The notes below the pieces were generated by a model. It had not been told where the DNA came from, ran no database searches, and was given only the letters and a program-made list of their open reading frames with translations. A DNA stretch of 64,000 nt from positions 3,361,001 through 3,425,000 of the forward strand of contig NZ_CP108093.1 in the NCBI RefSeq assembly GCF_036188265.1, in the 5' to 3' direction. This stretch comes from Streptomyces sp. NBC_00247. Its GTDB lineage: Bacteria; Actinomycetota; Actinomycetes; Streptomycetales; Streptomycetaceae. The position numbers and the translations under genes are program-made. Positions 17,809 to 32,699 of the stretch are shown piece by piece; position 1 is the first letter of the stretch; each line of letters begins with the position of its first letter.

Positions 17809-17840
17809 TGTGGACAACTACCGCTCCAACCTGTGGACAA
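17809..17840. other. Pair of perfect DnaA boxes outside oriC
   Basis: TGTGGACAA occurs at 17809-17817 and again at 17832-17840 in the same orientation, 23 bp apart centre to centre (about two helical turns). Each is the reverse complement of TTGTCCACA, the preferred Streptomyces DnaA box. Confidence 0.7.
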
Positions 17841-31134: not shown

Positions 31135-31389
31135 GTGCCGAAGTCACGTATCCGCAAGAAGGCCGGTTTCACGCCGATCGCGGCGAACCAGGCGACCACC
31201 ATCAAGCTGGGCAATCGCGGCTGGATCGCTCCGGTGATGCTGGGGCTCTTCCTCATCGGGCTGGCCTGGATCGTCCTGTTCTACGTGACCGACGGCTCGC
31301 TCCCCATCGAGGCGCTCCACAACTGGAACATCGTGGTCGGCTTCGGACTCATCGGCGGCGGCTTCGCCGTCTCCACACAGTGGAAGTAG
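31135..31389 (+). CDS. crgA: Cell-division protein CrgA
   Basis: An 84-residue actinobacterial division regulator. A basic N-terminus ([12 protein letters not shown]) is followed by two transmembrane helices (about 30-52 and 64-80). CrgA recruits or regulates division-septum enzymes and coordinates septation in aerial hyphae. The GTG start is preceded by CAGGAGCG. Monocistronic and divergent from the DUF881 gene. Confidence 0.95.
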
Positions 31390-31793
31390 TCCGCTGACCC
31401 GGCTCTCCCCCTGCTCCTGCCGCTTCTTCCCCGCGGCATGCGCGACAACTGCCTGACCCCGAAGGACCGCGTCACCCGAGATACCGGCGGAACCCGTGCG
31501 ACAGCGGCGTCCGACCGGCCTTCCGGGTGCCCGCCCCTGCCCGCTTCCAGGTCCCGTCCGGAAGTTACCCACAGGGTTATCCACAGTCGGGGGAAAAGGT
31601 CAGACGATCTGTGGATAACCTACGCCGAAGTTGACGCCGGTGTGACTACAGCCTCCCTCATCGAGGGAGGCTGTACCGCCTTTCCGGGCCAGAAAGACCC
31701 TGTTCAGCGACAGCACGAACGCCAGTACCCACTCTCCGCTTCCTCGCAGTCCCGCTCTGTGGATAACTCTGCCTTGGGAGTGGACAGAATCTG
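31390..31793. other. crgA-rhomboid intergenic region with three DnaA boxes
   Basis: This 404-bp converging intergenic region has no gene signal. Its notable content is three perfect TTATCCACA boxes (31577-31766). A relaxed box-like TTACCCACA lies next to the first. The rest is GC-poorer than the flanks. A short inverted repeat, GCCTCCCTCATCGAGGGAGGC (31650-31670), may be the terminator for crgA. Confidence 0.6.
31577..31766. other. Cluster of three perfect DnaA boxes
   Basis: TTATCCACA is at 31577-31585 on the plus strand. TGTGGATAA, its reverse complement, is at 31610-31618 and 31758-31766. The first two face each other 33 bp apart. All are the 9-mer bound most tightly by DnaA in many bacteria, about 26 kb from oriC. 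Confidence 0.75.
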
Positions 31794-32699
31794 TCAGGTG
31801 AGCGCCGCAGTTCGAGCAAGAACGATCAGGACCGACACCGCCAGCACCAGGGCACAGGCCCCGAACTGCACCAGGTTCCGCCGCGCGCGAGGCGCGTGCA
31901 CCAAGGCGACGGCGATGAGCGTTCCGGCGACCAGGCCACCGAGATGGGCCTGCCACGCGACACCGGGCCGCAGGCTGAAGAGCACGTTCAACGCGAGGAT
32001 GACCAAGGCCGGCCGCAGGTCGTAGTTCATCCTCCGCATGAGCACGACGGTGGCGCCCAGAAGGCCGAAGACGGCCCCGGAGGCTCCCAGGGAACCCTGG
32101 TTCTGGGCGCTCATCCAGTAGGTGACCGCGCTGCCCGCCAGCCCCGACAGCAGATACAGCGCGAGGAAGCGGAGCCGCCCGAGCGCGGCTTCCAGAGGCC
32201 CGCCCAGCCACCACAGCCCGAGCATGTTGAAGGCGATGTGCAGCAGCTCTTCGTGGAGGAAGACCGAGGTGATCAGGCGGTACCACTGCCCCTCGGCGAC
32301 CCCCGTCAGGCTGCCGGGGAAGGGCTGGGAATCCCAGGCGCGCCCCACCAGCAGCAGGTCCTGGAGCAGCCACGACCTGCCGGTCAGCCACACCGCGGCG
32401 AAGACGGCCACATTGATCGCGAGCAGGATCTTCGTGACCAGCCGGGGATCGGACGCCACCGCGCCGCCGGTGAGCGTACGGGGCCGCGCGGCAGCCGGAT
32501 GGTGGCCCGCACCCGCCCCGGTCCGGACGCATTCCGGGCAGTGGAAACCCACGGAGGCGCTGATCATGCACTCGGTGCAGATCGGACGCTCGCACCGGGC
32601 GCAGCGGATTCCGGTACCGCGGTCCGGATGGCGGTAGCAGAACCGCGTCGCCCCGCCCTCTTCGGACGGGTCGCGGTCTGCCGGCGGCTGCTGGTCCAT
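31794..32699 (-). CDS. Rhomboid-family intramembrane serine protease
   Basis: A 301-residue protein with an N-terminal cysteine-rich (B-box-like) zinc-binding domain (about 18-60, CYRHPDRGTGIRCARCERPI) and a rhomboid core with six or seven helices. The catalytic Ser lies in GASGAVFG and the His in the WQAHLGGL helix. HEELLHIAFNMLGLWW is the conserved L1/TM2 region. It cleaves transmembrane substrates; none is known here. Confidence 0.92.
   Translation of the reverse strand: MDQQPPADRDPSEEGGATRFCYRHPDRGTGIRCARCERPICTECMISASVGFHCPECVRTGAGAGHHPAAARPRTLTGGAVASDPRLVTKILLAINVAVFAAVWLTGRSWLLQDLLLVGRAWDSQPFPGSLTGVAEGQWYRLITSVFLHEELLHIAFNMLGLWWLGGPLEAALGRLRFLALYLLSGLAGSAVTYWMSAQNQGSLGASGAVFGLLGATVVLMRRMNYDLRPALVILALNVLFSLRPGVAWQAHLGGLVAGTLIAVALVHAPRARRNLVQFGACALVLAVSVLIVLARTAALT

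Follow-up and report, generated by a model that had tools for sequence, protein, structure and literature searches.

DnaA boxes between crgA and the rhomboid gene

In Streptomyces sp. NBC_00247, the gene for the cell division protein CrgA and the convergent gene for a rhomboid-family protease are separated by a gap of 404 bp (31390-31793; coordinates without further label refer to the window, the whole stretch of 64,000 nucleotides that was analysed). The gap contains four DnaA boxes, together with a conserved 17-bp element and a perfect inverted repeat (Table 1). Three of the boxes are exact copies of TTATCCACA lying within 190 bp, and boxes 1 and 2 face each other at a start-to-start distance of 33 bp, just as the initial annotation had described. 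The fourth is a near-consensus box, whose slot is occupied by a TTRTCCACA box in some relatives; beyond these four, no further site with up to two mismatches was found in 31390-31793. The window as a whole holds four exact copies of TTATCCACA, and the fourth of them (57420, + strand) is inside oriC, 25.8 kb away. The annotation was thus also right in placing the boxes in a converging intergenic region about 26 kb from oriC, in calling this region denser in perfect boxes than any comparable stretch of the window outside oriC, and in assigning a single exact TTATCCACA to oriC itself. Shuffled windows gave a mean of 0.06 exact copies, and none of the 100 shuffles reached four.

Table 1. Position and strand of the features in and next to the crgA-rhomboid gap, in window coordinates
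Feature	Position	Strand	Remarks
crgA (cell division protein CrgA)	31135..31389	+	ORF; Pfam PF06781, E 3.6e-26
Near-consensus DnaA box TTACCCACA	31565..31573	+	One mismatch; 12 bp ahead of box 1
Box 1, exact DnaA box TTATCCACA	31577..31585	+	
Partly conserved spacer separating the facing boxes, GGGGAAAA ... GACGATC	31590..31609		Anchored consensus, 153 loci
Box 2, exact DnaA box TTATCCACA	31610..31618	-	Faces box 1; layout anchor
17-bp conserved element GTTGACGCCGGTGTGAC	31630..31646	+	
Perfect inverted repeat	31647..31675		Arms 13 bp, loop 3 bases; read by eye from the sequence
Box 3, exact DnaA box TTATCCACA	31758..31766	-	148 bp from box 2
Rhomboid-family protease gene	31794..32699	-	Convergent with crgA; Pfam PF01694, E 3.2e-36

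The inverted repeat probably serves as a terminator, for crgA, the rhomboid gene or both, and among nine relatives compared by eye it is not kept in every one. A search of Rfam with 31300-31900 returned no match up to E 0.1. The tandem boxes about 12 bp apart, which are said to resemble the arrays of oriC, could be taken to indicate a cryptic or back-up replication origin. However, the gap contains no AT-rich unwinding stretch, with the lowest GC content of any 40-mer being 47.5% as against 40% in oriC, and a cryptic origin was rejected on account of this missing unwinding-prone stretch. We regard such an origin, or the alternative that the boxes are a chance or neutral remnant, as extremely improbable.

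Across the genome of 7,336,920 bp, we counted 18 exact boxes, three of which are those in the crgA-rhomboid gap. The list of 18 contains no second 190-bp stretch with three exact boxes, and the number of such triples expected genome-wide is about 2e-6. Furthermore, half of the exact boxes (nine of 18) are found no further than 90 kb from oriC, where 0.44 would be expected.

Several other groupings of boxes were observed. A TTNTCCACA cluster of three DnaA-like boxes, two on the + strand and one facing them on the - strand, lies upstream of dnaB, which encodes the replicative helicase, at about 35 kb from oriC (genome 3453738-3453826; L081:5739-5827), and another TTNTCCACA cluster, of four DnaA-like boxes, lies between pheA and serS, 81 kb from oriC (genome 3499273-3499598; L082:15274-15599). 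A facing TTRTCCACA pair (genome 3488944-3488977; L082:4945-4978) and a tandem TTRTCCACA pair (genome 3491480-3491502; L082:7481-7503) are situated 70-73 kb from oriC, and an exact TTATCCACA pair placed back to back (- then +, 12 bp apart) is found 2 Mb from oriC (genome 1365362-1365382; L083:3363-3383). On the - strand, a pair of TTGTCCACA boxes spaced by 23 bp (17809-17840) falls inside a long minus-strand open frame (L084). At least four other single-contig genomes of the genus (G001, G048, G026 and G055) have exact + and then - boxes 260-273 bp apart, at 80-134 kb from dnaA, and a genome of another family (G465, C1:160967-161182) carries three exact boxes as a direct repeat, 103-104 bp apart and 1.26 Mb from dnaA.

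Conservation of the boxes and their linkage to crgA

We searched the GTDB genomes for crgA and took the best 80 of 143 loci, which belong to Streptomyces, Actinacidiphila and one actinomycete MAG. In each of these 80 best loci, crgA is followed by three or more TTRTCCACA boxes, arranged in the order + ... - ... - or + + -, with ten further TTRTCCACA boxes elsewhere in the 80 loci. One locus (L021) has no rhomboid match, yet its boxes stand at a comparable distance from crgA. The facing pair, written as TTATCCACA-N18..48-TGTGGATAA, was detected in 381 of 392 Streptomyces genomes, mostly once per genome, and its reversed-pattern control gave 0 in every genome row. The exact pair is absent in 11 of the 392 genomes, and one of these (G031, identical to L103) preserves the arrangement, its forward slots being filled by TTGTCCACA and TTTTCCACA. 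Conservation of the three boxes in other species, which the initial annotation had named as one check of its proposal, was thus borne out in the 80 loci as well as in the search for the facing pair.

An enlarged set of 162 loci, including the window, was reduced to 154 distinct gaps. At a reach of 650 bp, at least three TTRTCCACA boxes were counted in 142 of them, two in 11 and none in a single gap, that of L161. When the reach was set to 900 bp, the facing pair was present in 153 of the 154 gaps, and a third TTRTCCACA box in 134 of the 153 facing-pair loci, being absent in 19, among them L161. In this gap, a distance of 671-734 bp separates crgA from the + boxes and the facing box, and the first 900 bp contain no third box; at L153, the forward boxes are absent and two reverse boxes are left. 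These box counts vary with the pattern used (TTRTCCACA or TTNTCCACA) and weaker sites fall outside the scoring, while the p-values assume independent loci, except in the nearest-neighbour test described below, where kinship is lessened, not removed. An origin of the boxes by chance or base composition is excluded by the shuffles, the reversed-pattern controls and the 6-mer ranking given below, which also disposes of the chance remnant mentioned above. As judged from sequence comparison, a functional DnaA-box locus outside oriC is a well-supported reading of the gap.

Outside the family, 13 of 14 genomes of the same order have TTNTCCACA no more than 250 bp 3' of crgA. Among 70 genomes sampled across 29 other families of the class, 50 have it there, representing 21 of these families, and the other 20 lack it. 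The reversed pattern matched once in the same 70 genomes, and neighbouring 250-bp windows held 0-3 boxes each, summed over 69-70 genomes. The DnaA-box core TCCACA is the commonest 6-mer 3' of crgA in these other families, being present in 63 of 70 genomes and 27 of 29 families, as against 4 to 18 of 69-70 genomes in the neighbouring windows, and the reversed and permuted 6-mers, used as controls in the same window, were found in 13/70 and 6/70 genomes. The full three-box layout is not general, and most of the 50 genomes carry one or two boxes. Family f3, of the same order (L116-L128), has tandem box pairs 20-21 bp apart at 10-140 bp past crgA, or alternatively a roughly symmetrical group of four to six boxes. 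The distance between crgA and dnaA could be computed for 29 of 31 genomes, with contigs treated as circular where needed, and is 12-132 kb in all 29. Origin-near DnaA sites beside crgA therefore look like an old feature of the class, and, judged by position, the boxes may be kept either for crgA or for the origin.

The same position would suit a DnaA-dependent transcriptional device, in which DnaA bound 3' of crgA acts as a roadblock or terminator and couples the output of crgA, hence septation, to the level of DnaA, possibly together with that of the convergent neighbour. In line with this idea, boxes follow crgA in 50 of the 70 genomes of other families, the boxes of L067 are still within 260 bp of crgA at a locus where the rhomboid match is 3.7 kb off, and a hairpin lies between boxes 2 and 3. 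However, the promoter side is nearly free of boxes, with four TTNTCCACA over 246 loci in the 500 bp ahead of the crgA stop, and at L161 the + boxes and the facing box are separated from crgA by 671-734 bp. Moreover, the linkage to crgA may merely mirror the conserved gene order near oriC. We consider such a device unlikely, and a further point against it arises from the spacing of the boxes.

Box spacing and the 17-bp companion element

The distances from a + box to the facing - box are mostly 29-33, 41-47 or 52-57 bp, and a period of about 12 bp describes them more closely than one of 10.5 bp. We read them as the slots of a putative tandem array that repeats roughly every 11-12 bp, and not as proof of phasing. 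Of 134 loci, 57 have box 3 at 149 bp from box 2 and 13 have it at 148 bp, and many of the remaining spacings gather near 127, 138, 159, 169, 179 and 190 bp. To allow for kinship, we paired every locus with the one closest to it in crgA sequence, which gave 99 pairs; this nearest-neighbour test, with its control, was applied to the box 2-box 3 spacing alone. The spacing was identical in 51 of the 99 pairs, changed by 1-4 bp in 26 and by at least 5 bp in 22. The 22 larger changes were 6, 7, 8, 9, 9, 10 (six times), 11 (three times), 12, 21, 21, 31, 31, 40, 45 and 67 bp; 16 of them are 9-12, 21 or 31 bp, and six (6, 7, 8, 40, 45 and 67 bp) are off or doubtful in phase. At a period of 10.5 bp, the mean cosine was 0.57 (p < 1e-4, against jitter of up to 5 bp). 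The control spacing, from the crgA stop to box 2 in the same pairs, had no such phasing (68 changes of at least 5 bp, mean cosine 0.01, p 0.45).

Since the 10.5-bp phase of the changes is non-random and that of the control is not phased, sizeable indels in the stretch separating box 2 from box 3 are tolerated mostly if the same helix face is kept. Such a pattern suggests that proteins bound at the two boxes touch each other across a loop. The dimer of DnaA domain I, which is reported to be conserved across Actinomycetes in the accessible text of PMC13270200, could supply the contact. A transcriptional roadblock, in contrast, requires no phasing with a box 149 bp off.

Beyond the facing box, relatives share an element of the form GTTGACGCCGG-T[GA][TC]GAC. 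A match of at least 11/17, starting 19 or 20 bp past the start of box 2, was found in 117 of 153 distinct loci, and one of at least 14/17 in 112, whereas shuffled stretches matched at most 11/17, in 2 of 153. In the genome, GTTGACGCCGGTGTGAC is present exactly once (31630-31646), with one other place at up to two mismatches, 2.6 Mb away, and the reversed control of the element likewise gave one genome match with up to two mismatches. Outside the Streptomycetaceae, in the order and in the class, matches to the 17-bp element were at or near chance level.

When part of the element (31631-31646) is set against the MtrA consensus of S. coelicolor, 10 of the 11 specified positions match; the accessible part of PMC5650626 gives this consensus as direct repeats, [GT]T[GA]ACC-N5-GT[GT]AC. 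Four other places in the 64-kb window score equally, and a 10/11 score was reached in the gap at 57 of 154 loci, versus 13 of 154 in a control stretch 500-800 bp further on. The 5-base spacer, which is free in the MtrA consensus, is highly conserved in the element, and the right half-site varies at two positions. MtrA-like sites adjoining crgA outside the Streptomycetaceae were not enriched, and MtrA as a class-wide partner of the boxes was rejected for this reason.

These data bear on the possibility of a composite checkpoint, where a second regulator, for which a response regulator of the OmpR family such as MtrA is one guess, would sit side by side with DnaA, and a growth or stress signal would set how much DnaA is held. 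The fixed offset from box 2 (19-20 bp, at 117 of 153 loci), the single exact occurrence in the genome and the 10/11 match all argue for such a site, as do the binding of MtrA to oriC, dnaA and dnaN in S. venezuelae and the interaction of M. tuberculosis MtrA with the DnaA protein, both according to the part of PMC5487470 available. Against it stand the looseness of the MtrA consensus, with its equal scores in the window and in 13 of 154 control loci, the conserved spacer with a variable right half-site, and the lack of enrichment of MtrA-like sites outside the Streptomycetaceae; in the MtrA ChIP accounts examined, crgA is not named. We gave less weight to this explanation, and to any reading that invokes a second regulator, because 10/11 matches to the MtrA consensus are not rare. 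The composite checkpoint seems quite unlikely to us as a separate explanation, and it is compatible with a role of the boxes in restraining initiation.

A proposed role in replication initiation and its relation to known systems

We propose that the crgA-rhomboid gap is an origin-proximal DnaA-box cluster, which probably restrains replication initiation by means of a looped complex. In the mechanism we envisage, DnaA would bind cooperatively to the tandem forward boxes and to the facing box 2, and would reach DnaA at box 3 through a loop of about 149 bp, a step suggested by the spacing; such a contact would require both sites to lie on the same helix face. Because the locus is 26 kb from oriC, it would be copied soon after each initiation, upon which its sites double. 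The doubled sites would then hold or inactivate DnaA, leaving less of it free for re-initiation, and the predicted outcome would be restraint, through titration or a datA-like inactivation. Since pure titration does not need a strict geometry, passive titration alone explains the data poorly, and the geometry speaks for a locus that may be more than a passive sink. Some of the counts weigh against the proposal, namely the spacing changes of 1-4 bp and the six larger ones off or doubtful in phase, the loci lacking a third box, the class genomes lacking TTNTCCACA beside crgA and the Streptomyces genomes lacking the exact facing pair. A broader reading, which we offer tentatively as possible though rather improbable, is that of an old actinomycete replication-control element beside crgA, where the Streptomycetaceae would have a phased loop of DnaA on a tandem array, the facing box and the far box, and a second regulator on the 17-bp site adjoining the facing box, with MtrA as one candidate, tying the availability of DnaA to a cell-division, envelope or growth signal.

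To our knowledge, it is poorly known how bacteria other than E. coli and B. subtilis prevent double firing of the origin by DnaA. A small non-coding site that persists beside crgA across many families of the class, with a spacing tied to the helix turn in the Streptomycetaceae, offers a precise target for experiments. If the companion element binds a signalling regulator, control of replication would be linked to the state of growth or of the envelope.

The initial annotation had suggested a locus analogous to datA or DARS. The first half of this suggestion fared better, a datA-like restraint being the likeliest role, while a DARS-like reactivation gained no specific support. In E. coli, oriC lies near 84 min. 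DARS1 and DARS2 are located at 17.5 and 64 min (PMC5295017, in the text available), and are thus not adjacent to the origin. A DARS-like site, which would reactivate ADP-DnaA and promote initiation, draws some plausibility from the three boxes found here, which, compared by count alone, equal the number in the DARS core (PMC4585315, as far as accessible), and from the strict geometry, which suggests an active nucleoprotein complex over a sink. However, a site that is copied right after oriC fits restraint better, and the sole Streptomyces precedent cited in the accounts examined is one of repression. DARS1 and DARS2 regenerate ATP-DnaA and raise initiation, according to the same portion of PMC5295017, and in this they differ from the crgA-rhomboid locus as we read it. 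We therefore judge such a site to be very unlikely, and we return to restraint as the preferred reading in the comparisons below.

The E. coli datA locus resembles the gap in being a non-coding multi-box locus outside oriC that lowers initiation, and the spacing between its boxes and its IHF site matters, as stated in the accessible part of PMC4585315. It differs in having five boxes and an IHF site, according to the same text, whereas the gap combines one near-box and three exact boxes with a 17-bp element of an unrelated kind; in total, four sites with up to two mismatches were counted in the gap against the five boxes of datA. The oriC-proximal DnaA-box clusters (DBCs) of B. subtilis (Okumura et al. 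2012) are similar in lying outside oriC, and their joint removal leads to early initiation, as summarised in the part of PMC5295017 available. A conserved phased layout goes unmentioned for them in the accounts examined, and one review, in its accessible part, doubts that they have a significant role.

The closest precedent comes from the genus itself. Smulczyk-Krawczyszyn et al. 2006 (J Bacteriol 188:6184) reportedly described three clusters around the S. coelicolor origin, named after the cosmids H69, H24 and D78, among which D78 is said to be the strongest DnaA binder and to differ from the crgA-side cluster. Like such origin-proximal clusters, the gap concentrates several consensus boxes in a small piece of non-coding DNA outside oriC (404 bp, with three exact boxes and a near-box), and it lies near oriC (25.8 kb). 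H69 is reportedly the cosmid that carries crgA, so that the crgA-rhomboid cluster may well be the orthologue of H69, and the dnaB-upstream and pheA-serS clusters would presumably fit H24 and D78, in that order. The initial annotation had considered a locus of this type undescribed in Streptomyces; the kind is in fact already known, as the 2006 study is cited for datA-like clusters in S. coelicolor (PMC5742627, PMC10950094, in the passages accessible). According to these citing accounts, the S. coelicolor clusters repress untimely initiation, and like the gap they are DnaA-box clusters outside oriC; none of the accounts examined mentions the companion 17-bp element, a phased third box or a link to crgA across the class. 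Within the literature searched, which consisted mostly of papers open without subscription, the presence of three or more boxes in all 80 best loci and of the facing pair in 381 of 392 Streptomyces genomes, the anchoring of the boxes at crgA throughout the class, the 17-bp element and the phased spacing of box 3 are, as far as this search reached, new additions to the origin-proximal DnaA-box clusters of Streptomyces.
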